Shown: positions 12,013-61,426, counted from the stretch's first letter. The stretch is 64,000 nucleotides of DNA from Olsenella sp. An290 (GCF_002159535.1 NZ_NFIU01000004.1:1-64000), one strand, 5' to 3'. Translations and numbers: made by a program. Notes: generated from the letters alone by a model not told the origin.

Positions 12013-12585
12013 ATGAGCAAGGTCGACACCACCAAGGTCCCGACGGACGAGCCCCACGGCACGGGGGAGACGACGGACCTCGTCCTTTCCGACGACACAG
12101 AGACGGGCGAGCTGGCCGAGGCCGCCGAGGCCGGCCAGGACATCGACCTTGCCACCGAGGGCGACGAGGACCTCGACTCCGAGGACTCCCTCACCTTCTC
12201 AAACGGCGTCATCGAGAAGATCGTGGCCATTGCCATGCGCGACGTCCCCGGCGTCGTGGGCATGAAGGGCAGCTGGTTCAATCGCGTCCAGGACGCCTTC
12301 GGCGCGAGCGACTCCACCAAGGGCGTGACCGTGGAGGTGACGCCGGAGAGCGCGGTGCGCGTGAACATCTCCGTGCTCATCGAGTACGGCGCGTATGCCC
12401 CGCAGGTCTTCGAGGACGTCAAGCGAGCCGTGGTCAAGCAGGTGACGGGCATGACGGGCCTCGAGGTCGCGGGCGTGAACCTGCGGATCGAGGACGTCCT
12501 CACGCCCGAGGAGATCGAGCAGCGCTCCCGCAGGGCCGTCCCCGCCAAGAAGGACGAGAAGGACGAGGAGGAGCCGGAGGAGTAG
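12013..12585 (+). CDS. Asp23/Gls24 family envelope stress response protein
   Basis: The 190-aa product starts at ATG 12013 after CGAGGAGCAGAC. An acidic, disordered N-terminus (about residues 1-60) leads into the Asp23 domain. Recognisable parts are LTFSNGVIEKIVAIAMRDVPGVVGMKG, then VTVEVTPESAVRVNISVLIEYGAYAPQVFEDVKRAVVKQV and GLEVAGVNLRIEDVL. These match Asp23/Gls24 proteins, abundant cytosolic proteins tethered to AmaP and induced by cell-envelope or alkaline stress. The C-terminus is charged (Lys/Glu). It is last in the three-gene operon, followed by a clear hairpin terminator. Confidence 0.92.
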   Translation: MSKVDTTKVPTDEPHGTGETTDLVLSDDTETGELAEAAEAGQDIDLATEGDEDLDSEDSLTFSNGVIEKIVAIAMRDVPGVVGMKGSWFNRVQDAFGASDSTKGVTVEVTPESAVRVNISVLIEYGAYAPQVFEDVKRAVVKQVTGMTGLEVAGVNLRIEDVLTPEEIEQRSRRAVPAKKDEKDEEEPEE

Positions 12586-15154: not shown

Positions 15155-15274
15155 GCGTCCTCCCTCCCTTCGCGCCTGCTGCCCTATGGTAGCGCCGGTT
15201 GTTCCCGCCGGGAGAGGTGGGGTTTTGTGTGGGTGACGTCCGGGGCGCCCCGCTCGGGGCGGCTTCGGGCTGAA

Positions 15275-15490
15275 ATCCTTCGGGATTGGGTGACGTCAAT
15301 CCTTCGGGATTGGGTGGCATCTTTGATGCCCAGATCGGGAAATGGGCGGTTACGCGTGGTCACAGAGCACGCGTTCTTCTCGCCACCTGCGGTTTTGTCG
15401 GATGCCGTGCGGCCATGGGTGCCCCTTGCATCAAAGATGCCACCCAATTCCGGAAGTAGGCCGCCCGCCACATCAAAGATGCCACCCAAT
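15275..15490. repeat. Family-2 inverted repeat, complex copy
   Basis: Two left arms (15275-15298 and 15299-15328) and two right arms (15429-15454 and 15471-15497) share AATCCTTCGGGATTGGGTG or its complement. The long arms contain ATTGGGTGGCATCTTTGATG (15309-15328; complements at 15429-15448 and 15471-15490). The central spacer contains GTTCTTCTCG (15373-15382). It occupies most of the 453-nt gap between the ydjM-like gene and the TPP riboswitch; the rest holds only the promoter noted below. It resembles a duplicated version of the element at 12741. Confidence 0.85.
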
Positions 15491-15590
15491 TCCGGAAGGT
15501 AATCCCGAAGGAGGCCCGCGGGAGGAAGCCCTCGCGTCGGGCCCCGTCGCCCGCGGCCGAGACGAACCTCGCGCCCGCGTCAGCCTGCCG

Positions 15591-15789: not shown

Positions 15790-16131
15790 GTGAACTGCTC
15801 GATCGCAATCCAGTTCCTGCCCATGGATGCCACCACCGACGACGCCACGTGCGACGCGGTGGACGCCGTCATCGCCTACATCGACTCCACGGGGGTGGAC
15901 TACTTCGTCGGCCCGTTTGAGACGGCGATCGAGGGCGACTACGAGACCTGCATGGAGATCCTCAAGAACTGCCAGCTCGTGGGTGCCAGGGCGGGCTGCC
16001 GCCACATGATGACCTACGCCAAGATCAACTTCCGGCCCGAGGGCGAGGTCATGTCCACCGAGCGCAAGGTCGGCAAGTACCACCCCGGCGACCCCGAGTT
16101 CGCCGAGAAGAGCGCGGACGCGGCGGCCTAG
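15790..16131 (+). CDS. Thiamine-binding protein, MTH1187/YkoF type
   Basis: The 113-aa protein starts at GTG 15790, 3-8 nt after GGAAGGGAGGGC. The sequence NCSIAIQFLPMD, then VIAYIDSTGVDYFVGPFETAIEGDYETCMEIL and ARAGCRHMMTYAKINFRPEG, fits the single-domain thiamine-binding family (PF01910-like, related to YkoF). It likely binds thiamine or its pyrimidine moiety in the cytoplasm. It is first gene after the TPP riboswitch, 1 nt before the permease gene, which ties it to thiamine-precursor uptake. Confidence 0.88.
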   Translation: MNCSIAIQFLPMDATTDDATCDAVDAVIAYIDSTGVDYFVGPFETAIEGDYETCMEILKNCQLVGARAGCRHMMTYAKINFRPEGEVMSTERKVGKYHPGDPEFAEKSADAAA

Positions 16132-16132
16132 G

Positions 16133-16921
16133 GTGGCGTCGCGTCCCGAGCCCAGCCGCGCCCGTCGCGTGCTCGCCCCGCTCGTTGCCGTCGTCGCGCT
16201 GCTCGTCATCTGGGAGGCCCTCGTCGACGTGGGCGTCATCCCCAGCTTCATGCTGCCGGCGCCGTCGCAGGTGGTCATGGCGCTCGCCGAGGACGCGCCG
16301 CTCCTTCTGGAGCACTCGCTCGTCACGCTCGGCGAGGCGGCGGCCGGCCTTGCCGGAGGCGTTGCCCTCGGCTTTGCGTTCGCGCTGCTCATGGACCGCT
16401 TCGAGACGTTCTACCTGGCCTTCGAGCCGCTCATGACGATCTCTCAGACCATACCCACCATCGCCATCGCGCCGCTTCTGGTGCTCTGGCTCGGCTACGG
16501 GGCGCTGCCCAAGGTCGTGCTCGTCATCGTGACCACCTTCTTCCCGGTCACGGTCTCGCTCGCCTCGGGCTTCCGCTCGGTCGACCCCGACGTCGTCGAC
16601 CTCATGCGCACGATGAACGCCTCGCGCTGGCAGATCTTTCGGTACGCGAAGCTGCCCGCCGCGGCCGACCAGTTCTTCTCGGGCCTCAAGATCTCGGCCA
16701 CCTACGCCATCGTGGGCGCCGTGATCGCGGAGTGGCTCGGCGGCAGCGTGGGCCTGGGCGTCTACATGACGCGCGTGCGCAAGTCCTTCTCCTACGACCG
16801 GCTCTTTGCCTCGATCATCATCATCTCGATTCTGTCGCTTGGGCTCATGAAGCTCGTCGAGCTCGCCCAGCGCGCAGGCATGCCCTGGAAGAGGGCGGAA
16901 AGGAACAAGAATGAGCGATAG
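16133..16921 (+). CDS. thiX: ABC transporter permease for thiamine pyrimidine precursor (ThiX type)
   Basis: The 262-aa inner-membrane permease starts at GTG 16133, 1 nt after the previous stop. About six transmembrane helices are present. The BPD-type permease EAA-like loop is seen as DVVDLMRTMNASRWQIFRYAKLPAAADQFFSGLKI. Related families import nitrate, sulfonates or hydroxymethylpyrimidine. The TPP riboswitch and the neighbouring NMT1/THI5-like binding protein point to pyrimidine (HMP-type) precursors. Its last 11 nt overlap the binding-protein gene. Confidence 0.9.
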   Translation: MASRPEPSRARRVLAPLVAVVALLVIWEALVDVGVIPSFMLPAPSQVVMALAEDAPLLLEHSLVTLGEAAAGLAGGVALGFAFALLMDRFETFYLAFEPLMTISQTIPTIAIAPLLVLWLGYGALPKVVLVIVTTFFPVTVSLASGFRSVDPDVVDLMRTMNASRWQIFRYAKLPAAADQFFSGLKISATYAIVGAVIAEWLGGSVGLGVYMTRVRKSFSYDRLFASIIIISILSLGLMKLVELAQRAGMPWKRAERNKNER

Positions 16922-17939
16922 GAACCTCGACAGGCGCCAGTTCCTCGCGGCCGCGGGCGCGGCCGTTGCGACCACGGCGCTCGTCGGCTGCGGCGGTACG
17001 GGCGCGGGCGGCACGACCCCGGCCGCGGAGGGCGAGAAGACCCACATCTCGTTTGTCCTCGACTACACGCCCAACACCAACCACACGGGCATCTACGTGG
17101 CGCTCGCCCAGGGCTACTTCGACGAGGAGGGCCTCGACGTCGAGGTCATCCAGCCGCCCGAGGACGGCGCCGACGCGCTCATCGGCTCCGGCGACGCCCA
17201 GATGGGCGTCTCCTACCAGGACTACATCGCCAACAGCCTGGCCTCCGACCACCCGATGCCCTACTCGGCCGTGGCCGCCGTCATCCAGCACAACACCTCC
17301 GGCATCATGAGCCGCGAGGAGGACGGCATCACGCACCCGGCCGCGATGGAGGGGCACACGTACGCGACCTGGAGCATGCCCGTCGAGCAGGCCACGGTGC
17401 GCCACTGCGTCGAGGCGGACGGTGGCGACTGGTCCAAGGTCGAACTCGTCACCACAAGCGTGACCGACGAGGTCAGCGGCCTGCACGCCAACATGTTCGA
17501 CACCGTGTGGGTCTACGAGGCCTGGGCCGTCCAGAACGCCGTCGTGCAGGACTTCCCGTACAACTACTTCAGCTTCATCTCGATCGATCCGGTCTTTGAC
17601 TACTACACGCCGGTCATCGCCGCCAACGACGACTTCGCCAAGGAGAACCCCGAGGCCGTGAGGGCCTTCCTGCGCGCGGTCAAGAAGGGCTACGAGTACG
17701 CGATCGAGAACCCCGACGGCGCCGCGGACATCCTCTGCGAGCAGGTGCCCGAGCTCGACGCCGATCTCGTTCACCAGAGCCAGGCCTATCTTGCCGACCA
17801 GTACACCGCCGACGCGGAGAGCTGGGGCGTCATCGACCCGGAGCGCTGGGCGGCCTTCTACCAGTGGCTGAACGACAACGACCTCGTCGAGAACAAGCTC
17901 GACGTCAACGCCGGCTACGACCTCACCTTCCTGGAGTAG
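16911..17939 (+). CDS. thiY: NMT1/THI5-like substrate-binding lipoprotein (ThiY type)
   Basis: The 342-aa extracytoplasmic binding protein carries a Tat-like signal (DRRQFLAAAG, residues 7-16) and a lipobox ALVGC with Cys27. The mature domain (HISFVLDYTPNTNHTGIYVALAQGYFDEEGLDVEVIQPPEDG) is characteristic of NMT1/THI5-like pyrimidine-precursor-binding proteins. AQMGVSYQDYIANSLASDHPM and FDTVWVYEAWAVQNAV line the expected ligand cleft. The gene overlaps the permease by 11 nt and precedes the ATPase by 3 nt. The ligand is inferred as hydroxymethylpyrimidine or a formylamino pyrimidine from family and riboswitch. Confidence 0.92.
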   Translation: MSDRNLDRRQFLAAAGAAVATTALVGCGGTGAGGTTPAAEGEKTHISFVLDYTPNTNHTGIYVALAQGYFDEEGLDVEVIQPPEDGADALIGSGDAQMGVSYQDYIANSLASDHPMPYSAVAAVIQHNTSGIMSREEDGITHPAAMEGHTYATWSMPVEQATVRHCVEADGGDWSKVELVTTSVTDEVSGLHANMFDTVWVYEAWAVQNAVVQDFPYNYFSFISIDPVFDYYTPVIAANDDFAKENPEAVRAFLRAVKKGYEYAIENPDGAADILCEQVPELDADLVHQSQAYLADQYTADAESWGVIDPERWAAFYQWLNDNDLVENKLDVNAGYDLTFLE

Positions 17940-17942
17940 CGC

Positions 17943-18725
17943 ATGACCACGGCTGGCGAGAAGAACGCGCAGGTCCCGGCCCTCTCCGCCGAGGGGCTCA
18001 CGCTCTCCTGGGACGGGGAGCACGTCGTGGTGGCGGACGTTACCGTCGACGTGGCGCCCGGCGAGGTCTGCTGCCTCGTCGGCCGCTCCGGCTGCGGCAA
18101 GACCACGATCCTGCACGCGCTCGCCGGCCTCACGACGCCCGTGTCCGGCCGCGTCCTCCTGCACGGGGAGGACGTGACCGGGCGTCCGGGACGGGTGAGC
18201 TACATGCTCCAGAAGGACCTGCTGCTGCCGAGCCGCCGCATCATCGACAACGTGTGCCTGCCGCTCGTGCTCGCCGGCATGCGCCGCGACGAGGCGCGAG
18301 CCAAGGCGGCGCCCTTCTTCGAGCGCTTTGGCCTCGCGGGCTCGGAGCTCAAGTGGCCGAGCGAGCTTTCCGGCGGCATGCGCCAGCGCGCGGCCTTCCT
18401 GCGCACCTACCTCATGGGCGCGGACGTGACGCTGCTCGACGAGCCCTTCTCGGCGCTCGACGCCCTCACGCGTACGGAGGTGCGCCAGTGGTTCGTGGGC
18501 GTAGCGGCCGAGCTTGGGCTCTCCGCCCTGGTGATCACGCACGACGTGGACGAGGCCGTCTCCATGGCGAGCCGCATCTACGTGCTCGCGGGGGCGCCCG
18601 CCGCGGGCGAGCCGAGCCACGTCATCGGCGAGGTGGCGGTGACGCGCCCCGCGGGCGAGCGGAGCTTCGAGCTCACGGACGAGTACCTCGCCGCCAAGCG
18701 CCAGGTCATGGCGCTGCTGGGGTAG
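17943..18725 (+). CDS. thiZ: ABC transporter ATP-binding protein (ThiZ type)
   Basis: Energises the pyrimidine importer. The product is 260 aa. Walker A GRSGCGKTT is at 47-55, the Q-loop near LQKDLLLPSR, signature LSGGMRQRAAF at 142-152, Walker B VTLLDEPFSALD at 162-173 and H-loop VITHDVDEA. These are standard for nitrate/taurine/HMP-type ATPases. The start is 3 nt after the binding-protein stop. Its N-terminus (TTAGEKNAQ) is encoded over a copy of CGAGAAGAAC (17957-17966). It is last gene of the riboswitch operon; an inverted repeat follows. Confidence 0.92.
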   Translation: MTTAGEKNAQVPALSAEGLTLSWDGEHVVVADVTVDVAPGEVCCLVGRSGCGKTTILHALAGLTTPVSGRVLLHGEDVTGRPGRVSYMLQKDLLLPSRRIIDNVCLPLVLAGMRRDEARAKAAPFFERFGLAGSELKWPSELSGGMRQRAAFLRTYLMGADVTLLDEPFSALDALTRTEVRQWFVGVAAELGLSALVITHDVDEAVSMASRIYVLAGAPAAGEPSHVIGEVAVTRPAGERSFELTDEYLAAKRQVMALLG

Positions 18726-18776
18726 GGCCGCGGGGCGCCGTGCTCGGGGTGACGGGCGCTCCGTCTCGCCTCAAGC

Positions 18777-18846
18777 GTTCTCCGCGAAATTTCGTCACTT
18801 TGAGGGCTTTGGAACCGTTTCCAAGTGACGATATTTCGCGGAGAAC
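18777..18846. repeat. 24-bp inverted repeat after the thiamine operon
   Basis: The arm at 18777-18800 (begins GTTCTCCGCGAAATTTCG) and that at 18823-18846 match as reverse complements at 23 of 24 positions, with a 22-nt spacer. It is GC-poorer than its surroundings and has no T-tract. It sits about 50 nt after thiZ in the 319-nt gap before the next operon. The rest of the gap holds the phased repeats at 18941 and no gene. Confidence 0.75.
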
Positions 18847-18940
18847 TGCATCGCGCGCCTTGCGGAGAGTTGCCCGCGCGGCCCGCGGACAACCACGGCT
18901 GGACGTCGCGACCACCGTCCCCTAGACCGCGTCAGGTGCC

Positions 18941-18969
18941 CGTAAGGCGTCCGTAAGGCTCACGAAAGG
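18941..18969 (+). promoter_or_regulatory. Three 11-bp-phased CGTAAGG direct repeats
   Basis: CGTAAGG at 18941, CGTAAGG at 18952 and CGAAAGG at 18963 recur at exactly 11-bp intervals, one helical turn. This is typical of OmpR/PhoB-type response-regulator sites. It lies about 75 nt upstream of the SBP/vWA/TelA cassette. A short inverted repeat ACGTATC/GATACGT follows (about 19005-19029). Confidence 0.45.
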
Positions 18970-19044
18970 TCCGCCCCCGCAGGTGGGGAGAGGACCGCCC
19001 TCAGACGTATCGTTGAGTCACGGATACGTTGGAGGGGAGGTCTG

Positions 19045-20190
19045 GTGGGCTCGAGAGCCAAGACGCTGGTGGCGGGCGTTGCCCTCATTCTGGTTGCGGT
19101 CGTGGTGGCGGGCGCCATTGCGCTCGGTCCGGGGCTGCTCGGCGCGGGGGCCTCCGCAGATGACGCCCCCGCCACCCAGCAGGAGCTCACCGTGGTCCAC
19201 GGAGTCATCGGCTCGGAGAAGGAGTCACTCTTCGCCGATCCCGAGGCCAAGGAGATCTTCGCCCGTCATGGCCTCGACGTTCAGGTCACTACGTCGGGCT
19301 CCTGGGCCATGGCGGAGCGCGCGGACCTCACGCAGGCAGACTTCGCCTCGCCCTCCTCGGAGGTGGCCGCCGCGCACCTCACGGACGTCCACGGAGACGC
19401 CGTCCTCTCCACCTCGACGCCCTTCTACTCGCCGCTCGCAATCGCCACCGGTGGCACCGTGCTCGACGTGCTCGCGGCAAACGGCCTCGCCGAGCAGCGC
19501 GACGGCGTGTGGTACCTCGACATGGCCGCCTACCTCGATGCCGTGGCAAGCGGCCGGCGCTGGACGGACCTTGCGGGCTCCGAGGCCTATCCCTCCAGCA
19601 GAAACGTCATGATCACCACCACCGACGTGCGCTCCTCCAACTCCGCCCTCATGTACCTCGGCCTCGCGAGCTATGTCCTCAACGGCAACGCCGTGATCAC
19701 GAGCGAGGACGCCGCGCGCGAGCAGGCCGCGTCCTCGCTTGCCCGGCTTTTCCTCGACCAGGGCTACTCGCAGTCGTCCTCCGCGGGGCCGTGGGAGTCC
19801 TTCCTCTCCAAGGGCCCCATGAACCAGCCGCTTACGCTTATCTACGAGAGCCAGTACCTCGAGGCCCAGATGAACGAGCCCACGCGCGTGACCTCCGAGA
19901 TGCGCATCTGCTACCCCGACCCCACGATCTTCTCGGACCACGTGGTCGTGGCCTTCTCCGAGGCCGGCCAGCGGGTCCAGGACGTGCTGGACAACGACCC
20001 TGACATGGCGCGCGTCATCGCCCGGCACGGATTTCGCGTGAACGGTGCCAACTCGGGGGCCTTCTCCGAGCAGGTGAGCGAGGCCGGCCTCACGGGCTAT
20101 GCCGCCGACGGCACCTTCATCGACGTCGCGCAGGCGCCCAGCTACGAGGTTGCCGACGCCATGCTCCAGACCATCGAGGCGCTCTACTAG
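19045..20190 (+). CDS. Membrane-anchored substrate-binding-like protein
   Basis: The 381-aa protein starts at GTG 19045, shortly after GGAGGGGAGG. The N-terminal hydrophobic helix (about residues 7-33) is an uncleaved anchor or signal; there is no lipobox. The rest resembles a type-2 periplasmic binding fold: ELTVVHGVIGSEKESLFADPEAKEIFARHGLDVQV, then NVMITTTDVRSSNSALMYLGLASYVL, LTLIYESQYLEAQM and CYPDPTIFSDHVVVAFSEAG. No ligand can be assigned. It is first gene of a co-directional set with a binding-domain/vWA lipoprotein, an XpaC-like protein and TelA, so it probably works with them at the cell surface. Confidence 0.75.
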   Translation: MGSRAKTLVAGVALILVAVVVAGAIALGPGLLGAGASADDAPATQQELTVVHGVIGSEKESLFADPEAKEIFARHGLDVQVTTSGSWAMAERADLTQADFASPSSEVAAAHLTDVHGDAVLSTSTPFYSPLAIATGGTVLDVLAANGLAEQRDGVWYLDMAAYLDAVASGRRWTDLAGSEAYPSSRNVMITTTDVRSSNSALMYLGLASYVLNGNAVITSEDAAREQAASSLARLFLDQGYSQSSSAGPWESFLSKGPMNQPLTLIYESQYLEAQMNEPTRVTSEMRICYPDPTIFSDHVVVAFSEAGQRVQDVLDNDPDMARVIARHGFRVNGANSGAFSEQVSEAGLTGYAADGTFIDVAQAPSYEVADAMLQTIEALY

Positions 20191-20214
20191 GCGCCGGGGA
20201 GGAGAAGAACCGTG

Positions 20215-21834
20215 ATGAACGCACTTGTTACTCGCCGCCGATGGCTCGCCGTTCTTCTCGCCCTGGGCTGCGCGCTCGGCGGGGCGGTCGCCCTGTCCGC
20301 ATGCGGGGACGGAGGGCCAGCGGCGAGCGAGTCTGAGGGAGAGGTCGCCGGAGAGGGCTCCGACCCCGACCCCGCGGTCGACGTCTCGGGCACGACGCTG
20401 CGCGTGCTCGCGGGCTCCGAGGTCCAGGACATGCAGCCCATCCTGGACGATGCCGAGGAGGAGCTTGGCATCACCGTGGAGCTCACCTACGCGGGCACGC
20501 TCGACGGCACGGAGGCCGTCATGGCGGGGGATGCCGACTGCGACGCCACGTGGTTCCCGTCCAACGCCTACATGAGCCTCTTCGACCAGAAGGCGGCGCT
20601 CGTGAGCCAGGAGACCTCGATCATGCGGACGCCCGTGGTGCTGGGCGTGCGGGCCGAGCGCGCGGCCGAGCTCGGCTGGGACGACAAGAGCCCCACGTGG
20701 GCCGAGGTCGTGGACGCCGCCGCCTCGGGCGCGTTCTCCTACGGCATGTCCAGCCCGGTCTCCTCCAACAGCGGCTTCTCCGCGCTGGTGGAGCTCGCGA
20801 CGGCGCTCTCCGGGACGGGCGCTGCCATCACGGCCGACGACGTCACCGCCGTGGCAGCCGACCTCTCGCGTTTTGCGCAGGGCCAGAAGCTGACGAGTGG
20901 GTCCTCGGGCTGGCTCATGGAGGCCTATGACAAGGACTCGTCCGCCGTCGACGGGGTCTTCAACTACGAGTCGCTCGTCCTGCAGGACCCGGGCCTCGTG
21001 GAGGTGATTCCCCAGGACGGCGTCATCACCGCTGACTACCCGCTCACGCTGTTCGCCGGTCGCGGGGAGAAAGTCGAGGCGGCCTACCGGGCGCTCGTGG
21101 ACTACCTGCGCCGCGACGACGTGCAGCGGCGCATCGCGGACGAGACGTTCCGCCGCACGGACGCCACCACGGCAGACGACGCCGTGGCCGCCTTCGAGAT
21201 TCCCTTCCCCAACCGCCTCGAGACGGTGCGCGCCCTGCTCTCCAGCTGGGTCTCCGACGTGCGCAAGCCCGCCAACATGGTCTTCCAGATAGACACCTCG
21301 GGCTCCATGGAGGGCGAGCGCCTCGACGCGCTCAAGGCCGCGCTCGTCTCCCTCACGGACACCGGGGCGGACGGCACGACCTCGCTCCTCACGTTCCAGC
21401 CGCGAGAGACGGTGCACTTCGTCGAGTTTGGCTCGGAGATCAAGAGCGAGAAGGACCTCGAGGTGGCGGCGGACGGAGACCTCTCCGACGTGCGCGCCTA
21501 CGTGGAGGGGCTTCGCACGGCGGGCAACACGGCAATCTACGGCACCCTCCAGCGCTCCCTCGAGCTGGCGGCGCAGAGCCGCTCGGACGACAACGTGACG
21601 TCGGTCGTGCTCTTCTCGGACGGGGAGAACACCGACTACCCGGGCATCGCCGAGTTCTCCTCCTGGTACGAGGCCACGCCCGAGGTCCAGGGCATCCCCG
21701 TCTACGCGATTCTCTTCGGCGAGGCCAGCAGGGCGGAGATGGAGCAGCTCACCCAGCTGACGGGCGGGCGCGTCTTCGACGCCGAGAACGGCGACCTCAC
21801 GGCCGCCTTCAAGGAGATTCGTGGCTATCTGTAA
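20215..21834 (+). CDS. Lipoprotein with substrate-binding domain and vWA domain
   Basis: The 539-aa protein starts at ATG 20215 (a GTG lies one codon upstream) after GGGGAGGAGAAG. The signal peptide ends in lipobox ALSAC (Cys30). Residues about 60-330 are a type-2 binding-protein-like domain (TLRVLAGSEVQDMQPILDDAEEELGI, ADCDATWFPSNAYMSLF, FSYGMSSPVSSNSGFSALVELATAL). Residues about 350-535 are a von Willebrand A domain. Its MIDAS motif is MVFQIDTSGSMEGERLDAL (DxSxS near 359-363), followed by TSLLTFQPRE and TSVVLFSDGENTDYPG. The fusion suggests metal-dependent protein contacts linked to ligand sensing outside the membrane. It lies 24 nt after the previous gene. Confidence 0.85.
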   Translation: MNALVTRRRWLAVLLALGCALGGAVALSACGDGGPAASESEGEVAGEGSDPDPAVDVSGTTLRVLAGSEVQDMQPILDDAEEELGITVELTYAGTLDGTEAVMAGDADCDATWFPSNAYMSLFDQKAALVSQETSIMRTPVVLGVRAERAAELGWDDKSPTWAEVVDAAASGAFSYGMSSPVSSNSGFSALVELATALSGTGAAITADDVTAVAADLSRFAQGQKLTSGSSGWLMEAYDKDSSAVDGVFNYESLVLQDPGLVEVIPQDGVITADYPLTLFAGRGEKVEAAYRALVDYLRRDDVQRRIADETFRRTDATTADDAVAAFEIPFPNRLETVRALLSSWVSDVRKPANMVFQIDTSGSMEGERLDALKAALVSLTDTGADGTTSLLTFQPRETVHFVEFGSEIKSEKDLEVAADGDLSDVRAYVEGLRTAGNTAIYGTLQRSLELAAQSRSDDNVTSVVLFSDGENTDYPGIAEFSSWYEATPEVQGIPVYAILFGEASRAEMEQLTQLTGGRVFDAENGDLTAAFKEIRGYL

Positions 21835-21836
21835 AC

Positions 21837-21883
21837 TGGGGACGGGTTTGTTCTCTCAGAGAAAACGGGACAGGTTGGGGGTG
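21837..21883. repeat. GGGACRGG-type intergenic repeat
   Basis: GGGGACGGGTTTGTTCTCTC is followed by AGAGAAAACGGGACAGG, directly after the vWA gene stop. It resembles the GGGACAG-containing units at 34973, 51736 and 54838 in sequence style, but has different arms. It separates the vWA gene from the XpaC-like start. Confidence 0.45.
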
Positions 21884-21913
21884 CCCGCCACGTCGCCACG
21901 GATGGGAGGTTCG

Positions 21914-22600
21914 ATGCCAGGGGAACGGGGCCTCGTGCTCGGGATGTCGGCGACGGTCTTCGTCGTGTTCTGCGTCTCCGCCCTTCTTGCCTCGGGGCTC
22001 GCCGCTCAGGTGGCGCTCGTGGTCGTCGGCGCCCTCATGTCGGCGGGCTCGTGGCTGCTGCTCACCTCGCTCAACATGCCTCGTCACGTGGCGGCGATAG
22101 ACCTGGACGCGCTCGTCGGGGCCGACCCCACGCTCAAGGAGTCCGCCGAGGCCGTGAGCGGCATGGCGGGCCGCATCGACGAGGCGTGCGCCGCGGACAG
22201 CCCCCGCGGCATCGCGGCGGAGTCCGAGCGGCTGCGGGCCCTCGTGTCCTCCATGGCGGAGCTCGTGGATCTGCCCGAGTTTGCCACGGCCGGGGCGGAG
22301 GAGGACCGCCACCTCGTCCTCTCGCTTGCCACCACATGGCTGCCGGGCGCCTGGGACCAGCTTGTGACCAACGTCCGCTACCTGGGGTTTGGCGGTCGGG
22401 CGAGCTCGCGCGCCAGGCGGAACGTGACCGCGCTCGACGAGCAGTGCGCGCACGTCGCCGGCGCGCTCGACCGCATACGGACCAACATAGTCGACGGGGC
22501 CTCCGCGAAGATCGAGACGGGCTCCGACTACCTGCGCCAGCGTCTCGGCCATCGGTCACCCGAGCTCTCCTTGGGGGAGCCTCCCGATGACCTCTCGTAG
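21914..22600 (+). CDS. XpaC-like membrane protein next to telA
   Basis: The 228-aa protein starts at ATG 21914 after GGGAGGTTCG. The frame is open back to a GTG at 21821, inside the vWA gene end, but the intervening repeat is not gene-like. Two N-terminal transmembrane helices (about 6-28 and 30-52) are followed by a soluble helical region (IDLDALVGADPTLKESAEAVSGMAGRIDEA, then NVTALDEQCAHVAGALDRIRTNIVDGAS). Topology and position beside TelA match XpaC-type proteins (5-bromo-4-chloroindolyl phosphate hydrolysis family), also paired with TelA in Bacilli. Sequence similarity is weak by eye, so this assignment leans on context. Confidence 0.6.
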   Translation: MPGERGLVLGMSATVFVVFCVSALLASGLAAQVALVVVGALMSAGSWLLLTSLNMPRHVAAIDLDALVGADPTLKESAEAVSGMAGRIDEACAADSPRGIAAESERLRALVSSMAELVDLPEFATAGAEEDRHLVLSLATTWLPGAWDQLVTNVRYLGFGGRASSRARRNVTALDEQCAHVAGALDRIRTNIVDGASAKIETGSDYLRQRLGHRSPELSLGEPPDDLS

Positions 22601-22636
22601 CCGACGGAACGATCTGACACTTGGAGAGGAGCCATC

Positions 22637-23812
22637 ATGGCACACGACCTTCTCGACGCGCCCGACGACAGCTTCGATCTGGAGGTGACGCCGGCGCCGG
22701 AGCCCGTCAAGACCGAGGGCGCCCTCGCGCAGGTGCCCGCGCCAAGCCCCGAGGAGCTCCTGCGCCTGAGCGGCAACGCCAGCTCCTGGGTTGCCAAGGT
22801 GGCCGCCCTGCCGCCCCAGAGCCTGGAGTTCAAGCAGGAGGTCGACGCGATCTTCGAGGTGGGGTCCGACGCCTTCCGGGAGACGGCCAGCACCTCGAGC
22901 CGCTTTCTCGAGCAGTCCCTGGTGACGTCGAAGAGCGGAGGCGCCCAGGAGCAGGTCTCCAGGAGCCTCGTGGACCTGCGCAACGAGGTCGACGAGCTCG
23001 CGCCGGGGGAGGACACCTTCGCCGAGCGCCTGCTGGGGGCCCTGCCCTTCGCCAATCGCGTGAAGCGCTACTTCAAGCGCTACGAGTCCAACCAGCAGCA
23101 GCTCAACGCCATCCTGCTGTCGCTCGGCAAGGGGCAGGACCTGCTGCGCAGGGACAACGCCGCCCTCAACGTGGAGCGCCGCAGCCTCTGGGGCAACCTG
23201 GGCACCCTCAAGCGCGCCTACGAGCTGCTCACGAGCATCGACGGCGAGCTCGTGGCGCGCATCGACCGGGAGCGTGCGGCGGGAAACGCCGAGCTGGCGG
23301 CATCGCTCGAGAGAGACGCCCTGTTCGCGGTGCGCCAGCGTCGCCAGGACGTGCAGACGCAGGCCGCCGTGACCATCCAGGCCTACCTCTCGATGGGCAT
23401 CATCCAGCAGAACAACGACCAGCTCGTGCGTGGCGTCGAGCGCGCCAAGACCACCACGGTGACCGCGCTGCGCACGGCCGTGATCGTGGCGCAGTCGCTT
23501 GAGAACCAGAAGCTCGTGCTCGACCAGATCGACGCGGTCAACAAGACCACGGACGCCATGATTGACCGCACGAGCAAGCTCCTGCAGGAGAACTCCCTGC
23601 GCACGCAGCAGCAGGCGGTCTCGAGTGGCGTCTCCCCGGAGACGCTGCGCCGGGCCTATGATGCGGTCTTCTCCACGCTTGACAGCATCGACAAGTTCCG
23701 CGAGCAGGCAAACGAGTCCTTCTCCAAGACCATTGACGTGCTGAACGACCAGCTCCAGCGCGCCCACGCCTATGCCGAGCGGATGAGCGTCGACAGGGGG
23801 TCAGAGGCGTAG
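22637..23812 (+). CDS. telA: TelA-like toxic anion resistance protein
   Basis: The 391-aa, largely alpha-helical cytosolic protein starts shortly after GGAGAGGAGCC. TelA signatures include LLGALPFANRVKRYFKRYESNQQQLNAILLSL, RRDNAALNVERRSLWGNLGTLKRAYELL, VQTQAAVTIQAYLSMGIIQQNNDQLVRGVERAKTTTVTALRTAVIVAQSL and DQIDAVNKTTDAMIDRTS. TelA proteins are linked to tellurite and other stress or membrane-damage resistance, but their mechanism is not settled. Here it ends a four-gene set with extracytoplasmic sensor-like proteins. It converges with the DeoR gene (23-nt gap). Confidence 0.92.
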   Translation: MAHDLLDAPDDSFDLEVTPAPEPVKTEGALAQVPAPSPEELLRLSGNASSWVAKVAALPPQSLEFKQEVDAIFEVGSDAFRETASTSSRFLEQSLVTSKSGGAQEQVSRSLVDLRNEVDELAPGEDTFAERLLGALPFANRVKRYFKRYESNQQQLNAILLSLGKGQDLLRRDNAALNVERRSLWGNLGTLKRAYELLTSIDGELVARIDRERAAGNAELAASLERDALFAVRQRRQDVQTQAAVTIQAYLSMGIIQQNNDQLVRGVERAKTTTVTALRTAVIVAQSLENQKLVLDQIDAVNKTTDAMIDRTSKLLQENSLRTQQQAVSSGVSPETLRRAYDAVFSTLDSIDKFREQANESFSKTIDVLNDQLQRAHAYAERMSVDRGSEA

Positions 23813-58049: not shown

Positions 58050-58120
58050 CATCCATCGCGTCAAAACGGACAAAAGGCCGAGAAAACCGCCCGATTCTGT
58101 CCGTTCTAACGCGATGGATG
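58050..58120. repeat. 23-bp inverted repeat at the island's left edge
   Basis: Arms at 58050-58072 (begins CATCCATCGCGTCAAAACGG) and 58098-58120 match at 21 of 23 positions. The loop holds GGCCGAGAAAACC, a relative of the recurrent word. The following 58128-58480 region contains TTTTTCTCG twice (about 58133, 58258). It has no supported gene and shifts toward lower GC. Together these fill the 598-nt gap. Confidence 0.7.
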
Positions 58121-58476
58121 CCAGGCGCCCCGTTTTTCTCGCTGTTGGGCGTGCTCGCGCCCGTCGCTCGTTCCATCCCGTGCCTCGAGTCTGCTCTCGC
58201 GGAGCCTGCTCCTTGCGGCTCCGTTCGCCGGACGTGCGGCGTCGGCATGTGCGGCATTTTTCTCGTTCATTACCGCCTCGAGCGGTGCTTGGGCAAGATT
58301 CGTGAGACTCCCGCCGATCTCCTCGACAAACTCGAGCATCGAGAGCGCGCCTTGTGGCAGAGAGTCCAGGGTGGCTTTTGTTTCCGATTATTCTTCTTGG
58401 ATGAAAGAGGATTCAGGTTGGAGGCCGCTTCATTTCCAAGCTTACCGTACATCACAATTCGCGAAACGATTGTCCG

Positions 58477-58482
58477 TATAAA
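58477..58482 (+). promoter_or_regulatory. Candidate -10 of the RloAB operon
   Basis: TATAAA sits directly before the left arm of the palindrome at 58484. Transcription would begin inside that arm, so a protein bound to the palindrome would block initiation. Confidence 0.4.
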
Positions 58483-58483
58483 G

Positions 58484-58528
58484 CAATACAGCACTGAATG
58501 TGATAATATCACATTCAGTGCTGTATTG
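58484..58528. promoter_or_regulatory. Perfect 21-bp-arm palindrome before the RloAB operon
   Basis: The arm at 58484-58504 (CAATACAGCACTGAATGTGA plus T) is perfectly inverted at 58508-58528 around the 3-nt centre AAT. GAGGAGGG, the ribosome site, follows at once, with the ATG at 58542. It is either an operator overlapping the start of transcription, or a leader hairpin next to the ribosome site. Its AT content fits the acquired island. Confidence 0.85.
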
Positions 58529-58541
58529 AGGAGGGATACAG

Positions 58542-59888
58542 ATGCTGCTGAACTTCACTCTGAGCAATTGGATGTCCTATCGTGATGAAGCTTCCCTCAG
58601 TATGATTTCCTCGCTTGAGCGGCAGCATGGGGAGACTCGCTCGGAGCTTCCGGGCTTTCGGAGCAAGAAGATCCTCCCAGTTGCTGCCGTGTACGGCGGC
58701 AACTCTTCCGGAAAGACTGCCCTCTTCAAGGGGCTCGCTGCGCTTCGCGAGATGGTCCTTACTGATCCTGGGGTGGACGGTCTGCTTCCCATTCGGCCTT
58801 TCATGCTTGACTCTCAGTCTTCGATGAGTCCGACGATGTTCGACATCACTTTCCTTGCCGGGAGGACGACGTATCGACTTGTGGTTGAAGCTACACGCTT
58901 CTCCGTCTCCTATGAATGCCTTGAGATAGTCAAAGAAGGCCAATCGATAGACGTTTATGAGCGCGACGCATCTCGCGATGAGCGTTTCCAGCTCAACAGA
59001 GAGCTTTTCAGCGACCCCGATCACGTACTGTACGCCGCAAAGAGCACTCGAAGTAATCAGGTTTTTCTCGGGGCGGGATTCTCCCAAAACATTGATGAGT
59101 TAAGAGAGCCTTTTGGGTGGTTTGCCGAGACTCTCGAGCTGGTGGGTGTTGAGTCGCAGGCCTGGTCGTTTGCCACGGCAGCGACCGACCGCGAGGACTT
59201 CCTCCGATATGCGGGTGAGGCGCTCTCGCGAATGGACACGGGGATATGTGGCTTGGTTGGAGAACGGGTTGAAGTTGATGCCCTCCCACCCGACGCTCGT
59301 CTGCTCAAGAGGGCATCGGAGCTCAAGGAGGATGAGACTATCACCGTCGTTGTCGACAGGGCTCCCGGCGACTACGGGTTCGAGATGCTCTCGGTTCGCG
59401 GCGGCGATTCCCGGCCGGATGTCCAGAGGCTTAGAACACTTCATCGTGGCCCCGACGGCGAGGAGCACTCTTTTGGACTAAGCGCGGAGTCCTCCGGAAC
59501 CCAGAGGCTCATGGGCCTACTCCCCATGCTGTTCGACCTCTCTGGCGAGAGTGGTTCACACGGCTCAAAGGTTTTTGTGGTGGACGAGCTTGACCGCTGC
59601 TTTCACACCATGCTCACCTCCCGTCTCATAGAGGACTTTCTCGCGACGTGCGGGCCCGACAAGCGAAAGCAGCTCCTCTTTACGACACACGACCTTCTTC
59701 TCATGGACCAGTCGCTCATGCGCAGGGACGAGATGTACATCGCCCAGCGAGGGTCAGATGGGCGGTCCCAGATTGTTGCCCTGAGCGACTTCGAGGGGAT
59801 TCGCTTTGACAAGGACCTGATCAAGAGCTACCTCGAGGGGCGCTTCGGCGGTATCCCGATGCTGGGTGAGGTGTCCGACCATGGGTAA
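58542..59888 (+). CDS. RloA/AbiL-type AAA15 family ATPase
   Basis: The 448-aa ATPase starts at ATG 58542 after GAGGAGGGATACAG. The N-terminal LLNFTLSNWMSYRDEASLSM is typical of AAA15/OLD-like ATPases. Walker A YGGNSSGKTALF is at 51-62. The ABC-like signature region AESSGTQRLMGLLPMLFDL is near 311-330, Walker B KVFVVDELDRCFHTMLTSRLIEDF near 341-364, and a His switch in LLFTTHDLLLMD near 380. It has no TOPRIM domain of its own; that is supplied by the next gene, as in RloA-RloB/AbiL and PARIS-like pairs. Codon use is less G/C-biased than flanking genes. A phage-defence role is inferred from family. Confidence 0.88.
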   Translation: MLLNFTLSNWMSYRDEASLSMISSLERQHGETRSELPGFRSKKILPVAAVYGGNSSGKTALFKGLAALREMVLTDPGVDGLLPIRPFMLDSQSSMSPTMFDITFLAGRTTYRLVVEATRFSVSYECLEIVKEGQSIDVYERDASRDERFQLNRELFSDPDHVLYAAKSTRSNQVFLGAGFSQNIDELREPFGWFAETLELVGVESQAWSFATAATDREDFLRYAGEALSRMDTGICGLVGERVEVDALPPDARLLKRASELKEDETITVVVDRAPGDYGFEMLSVRGGDSRPDVQRLRTLHRGPDGEEHSFGLSAESSGTQRLMGLLPMLFDLSGESGSHGSKVFVVDELDRCFHTMLTSRLIEDFLATCGPDKRKQLLFTTHDLLLMDQSLMRRDEMYIAQRGSDGRSQIVALSDFEGIRFDKDLIKSYLEGRFGGIPMLGEVSDHG

Positions 59889-60477
59889 GAGGAAGAACAA
59901 TACGCTGGTAAGGCAGACGGGGCGGCGTGCCTATCGCCCCGTCTGCTGGGTCTCAGCCGAGGGTGCCACCGAGCGAGACTACTTCCGTATGGCGGTTTTC
60001 AAGGATGCCCGTGCCTCCGTGAAGTATCCGAAAAACGTCCATCCTTCAAGGAGAAATCCCGCAGCGGTTCTCAAGAGACTCCAGAAGGAAATCGGGTCCG
60101 AGGAGCTTAGGGATGGAGATGAGGCGTGGGTTGTCGTGGACGTAGATGACTACGAGGGCGAGCTCGGTGATCTTCTCGAGTGGTGTGACAGTCATCCGGG
60201 TTTCCACCTCGCAGTGAGCAATCCAAAGTTCGAGCTGTTCCTCGTCATGCATTTTGAGAAAGCCAACGGATGCACGACAGCGGCAAAGGTCGACGCTGCC
60301 CTTAAACGTCACATGCCCGGGTACGATAAGCGCCTGACTCCGACGCAGTTCTCGCTCGAAGACGTGAGGGGTGCGATAGCAAACGCGAGAGAGAAGCGCG
60401 TTGCCCGTGCGGATGAGTTACCCGGGCCCGGGATGACGGATGCGTTCAAGCTGGCGGAGAGTTTGCTAGGAGTGTAG
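59881..60477 (+). CDS. RloB family protein, TOPRIM-like effector
   Basis: The 198-aa protein starts at ATG 59881, overlapping the ATPase gene by 8 nt; a GTG at 59866 is also in frame. RloB features are VCWVSAEGATERDYFRMA (Glu27, Glu31), DGDEAWVVVDVDD (Asp87, Asp89) and AVSNPKFELFLVMHFE (114-126). The Glu plus DxD arrangement resembles TOPRIM nucleases. In AbiL-type systems this protein is the partner of the RloA ATPase. It is translationally coupled to both neighbours. Confidence 0.88.
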   Translation: MGKRKNNTLVRQTGRRAYRPVCWVSAEGATERDYFRMAVFKDARASVKYPKNVHPSRRNPAAVLKRLQKEIGSEELRDGDEAWVVVDVDDYEGELGDLLEWCDSHPGFHLAVSNPKFELFLVMHFEKANGCTTAAKVDAALKRHMPGYDKRLTPTQFSLEDVRGAIANAREKRVARADELPGPGMTDAFKLAESLLGV

Positions 60478-60478
60478 G

Positions 60479-61426
60479 TTGATTGCGAGAAGCCTTCTTG
60501 ATGGGTTTACGGAGAAGCTTGAATTTGAGACCGTGTGGCAGCTCAAGCTTTACGACGGTGAGGTGTATCACTACTCCTCACTGGGGAACGTCAATCCCAT
60601 CCTCCTGGACGAAGAAGGCCTATGCCTCTGGGCGAGCAGAATTGACTGTTTGAACGACGCTTCCGAGGGGACGCTGCCCGTAATTCGGTTCGCCCAGGCC
60701 TGCGACGAGCTTAAGGCCGCTGGGAGAATTGACGAGAGTTTCTACGAATTGATCAGAGATGTTCGTCCCAACCGCACCGGGCTTATCCTCTATACGGCAA
60801 GCGGAAAGACTCGTCCGGTGAGAGATGAGTTCAAGACGTACGTCACCTCTTTTTCTGAGGACCCTGACGCGCTGGCAATGTGGAACTACTATTCCAAGGG
60901 CAACCGATATGAGGGGATGAATATAGGAGTCTCTTCTCGCGACTTGCTGAATTCTCTCAGCTCACGCCAAAACCAAGACGGAACCATGATGGCGCTCATG
61001 GTGAAGGTGATATATGACGAAAGAGAGCAGCTTGAGCTAATCGAGAGGGCACTCCTCGATTTGTATGAGAACTACGAACAGGGCTATGGGGGACACGTTA
61101 GATATCACATCGGAACGTTACTCAGTAATCTGAAGCCTGTCTTTAAGTACGCCTGCTTTTCCCACGAGAAGGAGGTGCGCTTGTTCGTCAACGTGTACAA
61201 CAAGCTTGAATCTGAGGTGCGTGTTGAGTACAGAACCTGTGCCGGATACGTGGTTCCCTATGTCTCCCTCAACTTTGACAGGGCTGTTGTTTCTCGGATA
61301 ACGCTTGGACCGAGTCTTGGAAGCGATGATCAGAAGGCTGTGCAGAAAAAGGTCGTTGAGGAGATGCTGAAGAGCTGTGGCTATCGAGCCGCGGTTGAGC
61401 AGTCGAACATTCCCGTGAGATACTGA
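60479..61426 (+). CDS. DUF2971 domain protein, third gene of the defence-like operon
   Basis: The 315-aa protein starts at TTG 60479, 1 nt after rloB, with TAGGAGTGTAGG upstream. DUF2971 hallmarks: LYDGEVYHYSSLGNVNPILLDEEGLCLWASRIDCLNDASEG (about 24-64), YVTSFSEDPDALAMWNYYS (121-139) then YEGMNIGV, and FSHEKEVRLFV near 230. The conserved aromatic/acidic pattern suggests an enzyme, but activity is unknown. DUF2971 genes are often found in defence islands. Its tight coupling to rloB suggests a three-component system. Confidence 0.82.
   Translation: MIARSLLDGFTEKLEFETVWQLKLYDGEVYHYSSLGNVNPILLDEEGLCLWASRIDCLNDASEGTLPVIRFAQACDELKAAGRIDESFYELIRDVRPNRTGLILYTASGKTRPVRDEFKTYVTSFSEDPDALAMWNYYSKGNRYEGMNIGVSSRDLLNSLSSRQNQDGTMMALMVKVIYDEREQLELIERALLDLYENYEQGYGGHVRYHIGTLLSNLKPVFKYACFSHEKEVRLFVNVYNKLESEVRVEYRTCAGYVVPYVSLNFDRAVVSRITLGPSLGSDDQKAVQKKVVEEMLKSCGYRAAVEQSNIPVRY

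Follow-up and report, generated by a model that had tools for sequence, protein, structure and literature searches.

For decades TelA has been described as a protein conferring resistance to tellurite and bacteriocins, and to our knowledge its mechanism has never been explained. Pairs of XpaC with YaaN/TelA are reported to be under envelope-stress regulation (PMC3498285, PMC3139573, PMC12791056): xpaC-yaaN of Bacillus subtilis lies within the core sigma-W regulon (PMC3498285), and the XpaC-like and telA1 genes of Lactococcus lactis were induced under membrane-protein overproduction, an envelope-stress setting (PMC3139573). A Listeria telA mutant showed greater sensitivity to nisin and tellurite (PMC11765107; also PMC12791056). 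TelA and TerF, a protein with a von Willebrand factor A (vWA) domain, were proposed to build sub-membrane structures that block the entry of phage or toxins (PMC7824862). Here, a stretch of 64,000 nucleotides (nt) from Olsenella sp. An290 (NZ_NFIU01000004.1:1-64000, the window) was analyzed, in which an initial annotation made without database searches had described a four-gene cassette encoding a solute-binding protein (SBP)-like protein (SBP1), an SBP-vWA lipoprotein, an XpaC-like membrane protein and TelA (PF05816). The four genes were confirmed as co-directional genes spanning 19045-23812, with intergenic gaps of 21, 79 and 36 nt and a Shine-Dalgarno-like, purine-rich stretch preceding each start; they are real and form a unit. 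We read this unit as a form of the TelA/XpaC envelope-stress module that bears an outer receptor, a reading to which we give an even chance.

Conservation and gene order

When the GTDB species collection was searched with a profile, 362 relatives of the SBP-vWA protein were returned, and the best 80 of the 362 loci were examined. Genes for SBP-vWA, XpaC, SBP1 and TelA were found all together in 60 of these best 80 loci, belonging to Collinsella, Olsenella, Bifidobacterium, Lachnospiraceae and Oscillospiraceae; some of the remaining loci were cut by contig ends. Relatives were seen in two phyla, Actinomycetota and Bacillota, and the conservation of gene order, which had been suggested as a check on the cassette, is thus strongly supported across both. 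Where the trio occurred without an adjacent TelA gene (10 genomes), TelA was encoded elsewhere in 10/10. The pairwise distances of the four proteins correlated with one another (rho 0.91-0.93 overall, 0.55-0.78 within Clostridia), and an exact 1-nt overlap of the XpaC stop and the SBP1 start was present in 55 loci.

Co-occurrence was also analyzed at the level of genomes. Among 296 Coriobacteriia, a full-length SBP-vWA protein was encoded in 25 and TelA above cut-off in 92, and all 25 had both, the two genes lying near the ends of different contigs in one of them. Within the window's genus, 13 genomes carried both and 8 carried neither; the Fisher p values for the class and the genus (1.6e-14 and 4.9e-6, respectively) overstate the evidence because the test treats related genomes as independent. 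SBP-vWA was found in only 2 of 245 genomes of a Clostridia-wide sample, one of these being the chosen centre, indicating that the distribution is patchy.

The genes were reordered between lineages yet kept together, which argues for a shared function. With X denoting the XpaC-position gene, the order SBP1-vWA-X-TelA was present in the window's genus and one other genome, vWA-X-SBP1-TelA in Collinsella, Olsenella, Bifidobacterium and Clostridia, and SBP1-TelA-vWA-X in three large (9-10 Mb) actinomycete genomes. Other Coriobacteriia encode a protein of 250-310 amino acids (aa), one or two SBP-vWA-type proteins and then TelA (X-vWA-TelA), and the order TelA-X-vWA was also seen among them.

Two further arrangements were observed. 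At locus L169 (5641-9212), two successive vWA-bearing proteins are followed by TelA and SBP1 is absent, a further variant of the module. In loci L115, L116 and L117, the strand opposite the cassette carries a second SBP1-like gene at a distance of 2-3 kb (about 12359-12553, minus strand); it occurs in Bifidobacterium saimiriisciurei and B. primatium, and the former has two SBP-vWA loci on a single contig.

The outer binding proteins, the XpaC-position protein and TelA

The gene labels of the initial annotation were borne out for TelA, the vWA domain and its metal ion-dependent adhesion site (MIDAS) by Pfam matches and the DTSGS motif. For SBP1 and the XpaC-position protein of the window they did not follow from the proteins' own sequences, which gave no Pfam or NCBIfam match (the latter protein not reaching the PF10112 cut-off), and they stand through relatives at the same position. 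SBP1 is so named because same-position genes of related cassettes match SBP_bac_11 (PF13531; 5/10 aligned members), and the XpaC label was assigned because genes of the same position and architecture in related cassettes match PF10112 (XpaC) above cut-off (6/10 aligned members). By predicted topology both binding proteins are extracytoplasmic, as had been claimed; only the SBP-vWA protein is a lipoprotein (lipobox LSAC, Cys31), and SBP1 has one predicted N-terminal transmembrane (TM) helix and lacks a lipobox. The proposed arrangement spanning the membrane likewise follows from the predicted topologies.

SBP1 is homologous to the SBP part of the SBP-vWA protein (hhalign profile comparison: probability 98%, E 1.4e-13); a search of the Protein Data Bank (PDB) sequences using the SBP1 profile returned no match. 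The SBP-vWA protein consists of a binding-protein domain (about residues 59-353) and a vWA domain (about 352-540) that scored 43.6 bits against PF00092 in Pfam. Its AlphaFold2 (AF2) model, with a predicted local distance difference test (pLDDT) score of 82, showed a class II binding protein followed by the vWA domain. The best fold match in VIA-align was the thiamin-binding protein 2qry (Z 26.0, 2.9 Å, 271 residues), tied with the sulfate-binding protein 1sbp (Z 25.8, 3.6 Å, 273 residues), and the vWA part matched ITIH vWA domains (Z 22).

Conservation within the SBP-vWA protein was analyzed with 46 sequences from the two phyla. The MIDAS, whose DTSGS motif occupies residues 361-365, is complete, with D361, S363, S365, T440 and D470 each kept in 45-46 of the 46 sequences; a vWA domain bearing it need not act in adhesion, which is one possible role. 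Residues conserved in at least 95% (G68-S69-E70, S117, S185-N-S-G188, S229-G-S-S232 and N251-Y-E253) are located at strand-to-helix loops, and because such loops form the pocket in the class II fold, those of the SBP-vWA model probably line a ligand pocket. A parallel series of motifs runs through both proteins (GGEK, SNSGNE and GYESQ in SBP1; SGSEN, SNSGASAY and NYES in SBP-vWA), which suggests that their ligands may be related.

The XpaC-position gene most likely starts at ATG 21914, rather than at the start of the longer open reading frame at 21821, because its relatives begin at that point. A hydropathy threshold detected one strong N-terminal helix in the window copy and two in 53/77 relatives. 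TelA matched PF05816 with 231.6 bits against a cut-off of 30, covering profile positions 3-329 of 332, and its AF2 model contained long helices only (pLDDT 70; predicted template modelling score, pTM, 0.51). An assignment of TelA to an ESCRT-III/PspA-like fold was rejected because the model is weak and the PDB matches were generic helical bundles, the best of them (Z 13.2) within the noise of the tool. The TelA tree grouped the window clade with the X-vWA-TelA clade (100/100), and a long branch separated the window clade from the stand-alone and vWA-X-SBP1-TelA proteins; the deep relations are uncertain because the branch lengths are extreme.

PspA, a membrane-stress protein, was found in the place of TelA in two relatives. 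One actinomycete class encoded SBP-vWA in 13 of 249 genomes, with TelA above cut-off in 0/13 and PspA somewhere in 12/13. Loci L204 (5172-8644) and L227 (4483-8087), from two genera of one family, encode SBP-vWA, a membrane protein and PspA (PF04012), and both genomes are without TelA. These two cases are suggestive of PspA taking the TelA position beside SBP-vWA; should further genomes show it as well, this would tie TelA to membrane repair. PF04012 (PspA/IM30) had no match in the window's genome.

Surroundings of the cassette

The initial annotation had considered import unlikely, as no permease or ATPase accompanies the binding proteins, and the wider survey agreed. A directly adjacent ATP-binding cassette (ABC) ATPase gene on the same strand was present in 3 of the best 80 loci, all of the Collinsella type beside a Liv-type operon, which was rejected as a partner because it is lineage-specific. 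ABC ATPase genes also formed a loose cluster in 10 loci, at varied distances from the cassette; apart from this cluster, no neighbour common to the sampled groups was found, neither a shared regulator nor any other fifth gene. Import by a dedicated transporter is unlikely because so few loci have an adjacent ABC ATPase and no transporter is common to the groups.

The ThiXYZ-like ABC operon upstream of the cassette (Table 1) was also rejected as a partner, being constant in the window's genus, absent beside the cassette elsewhere and equipped with its own NMT1-type SBP. On the 3' side, a convergent gene of a DeoR-type regulator lies 23 nt from the TelA end. A promoter and terminator scan of the cassette returned nothing, including no sigma-70-like promoter in the upstream gap. 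A PADLOC scan of the four proteins gave no match to anti-phage defence.

Table 1. Coordinates of the cassette genes and of the region immediately upstream in the window.
Feature	Position	Strand	Size	Description
SBP1	19045..20190	+	381 aa	Single membrane anchor at the N-terminus; solute-binding-protein-like domain, extracytoplasmic
SBP-vWA lipoprotein	20212..21834	+	540 aa	Class II binding-protein domain and C-terminal vWA domain
XpaC-position membrane protein	21914..22600	+	228 aa	Hydrophobic at the N-terminus, helical thereafter
TelA (PF05816)	22637..23812	+	391 aa	No TM helix; long helices predicted
Upstream gap	18726..19044		319 nt	Between ThiXYZ-like operon and SBP1; presumed 5' boundary of the cassette
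ThiXYZ-like ABC operon	16133..18725	+		Permease, NMT1-type binding protein and ATPase; judged outside the cassette

The upstream gap contains a 27-nt inverted repeat (18777-18803 and 18820-18846; 93% complementary, 16-nt loop), present as a single copy in the window; it may act as a regulatory hairpin or be a remnant of a mobile element. The ThiXYZ-like operon is preceded by a Thiamine_BP (PF01910) gene, the two together covering 15790-18725, and the non-coding region upstream of these thiamin-related genes (15274-15498) carries short direct repeats of 24 and 28 nt, e.g. AATCCTTCGGGATTGGGTGACGTC. At a distance from the cassette, third-position G+C falls to about 0.6-0.7 in 58118-61426, where the overall G+C is also lower; this stretch was possibly acquired recently.

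Proposed mechanism, alternatives and known systems

In the reading to which we give an even chance, the outer module of the cassette is joined via the XpaC-type protein to TelA, and its link to envelope stress is drawn from the findings in B. subtilis, L. lactis and Listeria. For the ligand, the formation of a complex, the direction of the signal and the action of TelA at the membrane, we infer the following course. Two homologous class II SBPs would face the cell wall, SBP1 by its TM anchor and SBP-vWA as a lipoprotein, and both would bind a common small ligand arising from envelope damage, plausibly an oxyanion, an organophosphate or a wall precursor. The ligand might alter the SBP domain so that the metal-binding MIDAS of the vWA domain drives contact between the outer proteins or with the XpaC-type protein. 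The latter, held by its N-terminal helices, would couple this outer event to cytoplasmic TelA, and TelA, a long helical protein, would then protect or stabilise the membrane at its inner face.

A sharper version is put forward tentatively, as we judge the balance to lie somewhat against it: the transport-free SBPs would be a two-part outer receptor, made of SBP1 and a metal-gated SBP-vWA, which recruits or activates TelA or PspA via the XpaC-type linker. If true, the two-part receptor would make up an envelope-repair system that senses a ligand and differs both from two-component kinases and from the classical control of phage shock protein (PSP) systems. The predicted ligand pocket and the metal site of the conserved outer module offer a concrete handle on the old question of TelA, and the cassette is present in common gut genera (Collinsella, Olsenella, Bifidobacterium, Lachnospiraceae).

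Several points weigh against the receptor-bearing reading. Thirteen actinomycete genomes encode SBP-vWA without TelA, and TelA can therefore be dispensed with. Many genomes of the window's genus encode both TelA and PspA, which speaks against a simple either-or relationship, and mutual exclusivity of the two was rejected. In the window, the XpaC-like protein has diverged beyond recognition by Pfam, and no more than one of its N-terminal helices exceeds the simple hydropathy threshold; the TelA model is weak and its fold matches are uninformative. The best 80 of the 362 loci are the highest-scoring ones, and linkage is less well sampled in the more distant relatives. The operon could also serve constitutive upkeep of the wall or membrane instead of stress sensing.

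Orphan SBPs that serve distant importers are known in general, and this precedent opens the possibility that the outer SBPs sequester a toxic anion or metabolite, or pass it to a distant ABC importer, and that TelA and the XpaC-type protein handle the same compound inside separately. A class II fold nearest to thiamin- and sulfate-binding proteins and the conserved pocket loops would suit this role. However, a permanent TM anchor on SBP1 and a vWA domain fused to the other SBP are easier to reconcile with a receptor than with a carrier, and the 1-nt overlap with the XpaC-type gene and the lack of a linked transporter across phyla also argue against it; we regard this explanation as unlikely.

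We consider it rather improbable that the outer proteins serve in the metal-dependent assembly or chaperoning of wall or surface polymers, at a site that TelA and XpaC organise from inside and with the stress phenotypes as a secondary effect. Such a role would agree with the complete MIDAS, with relatives in both Actinomycetota and Bacillota and with the finding that loss of telA in Listeria alters the response to cell-wall-acting agents (PMC11765107), but no wall-synthesis gene is among the shared neighbours, and the patchy presence in the window's genus (13/21 genomes) speaks against a core function in wall building.

There is a slim chance that the cassette is a device for defence or exclusion of xenobiotics akin to Ter systems, as the sub-membrane structures proposed for TelA and TerF (PMC7824862) and the patchy distribution would allow; against this, none of the four proteins was matched by PADLOC, the vWA domain of the cassette is outside the cell and no ter gene is among the shared neighbours. 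That two unrelated binding proteins lie beside a TelA/XpaC pair by chance, in favour of which stands only the lack of a Pfam match for two of the window proteins, is very improbable, given a unit kept in several orders across two phyla with correlated divergence and contradicted as chance by 60 of the best 80 loci.

A literature search for a receptor-bearing form of TelA found none, in a search that did not extend to the 2012 Ter/TelA review (doi 10.1039/c2mb25239b) or to the Listeria telA paper (PMC2976142), and the main text of a 2024 survey of PSP systems makes no mention of vWA, TelA or XpaC (PMC11237479). The cassette resembles PSP systems, in which PspA acts with PspM or PspC, in combining a cytoplasmic helical protein with a small membrane partner, whereas its TelA is not PspA by Pfam. 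With Ter/TelA systems (TerF vWA, TerD, TerB, TerC) it shares the occurrence of TelA together with a vWA protein; its own vWA, in contrast, lies outside the cytoplasm, in a lipoprotein where it is fused to a binding-protein domain, and no TerD, TerB or TerC was seen among the neighbours of the cassette, to which this comparison was confined, no genome-wide search having been made. The cassette SBPs share the predicted fold and the layout of the pocket loops with class II SBPs binding sulfate, thiamin or spermidine, but they have no permease or ATPase partner and are either vWA-fused or permanently anchored in the membrane. In the XpaC-YaaN/TelA pairs of Bacillus, Listeria and Lactococcus, as here, TelA (PF05816) adjoins an XpaC-type membrane protein (PF10112 in the cassette relatives); the window cassette differs from them in its two added outer binding proteins, one of them fused to vWA, and in a TelA whose clade is separate from that of the stand-alone TelA proteins. 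TelA and XpaC themselves are already known, and the receptor-bearing cassette is a variant of this known TelA/XpaC theme.

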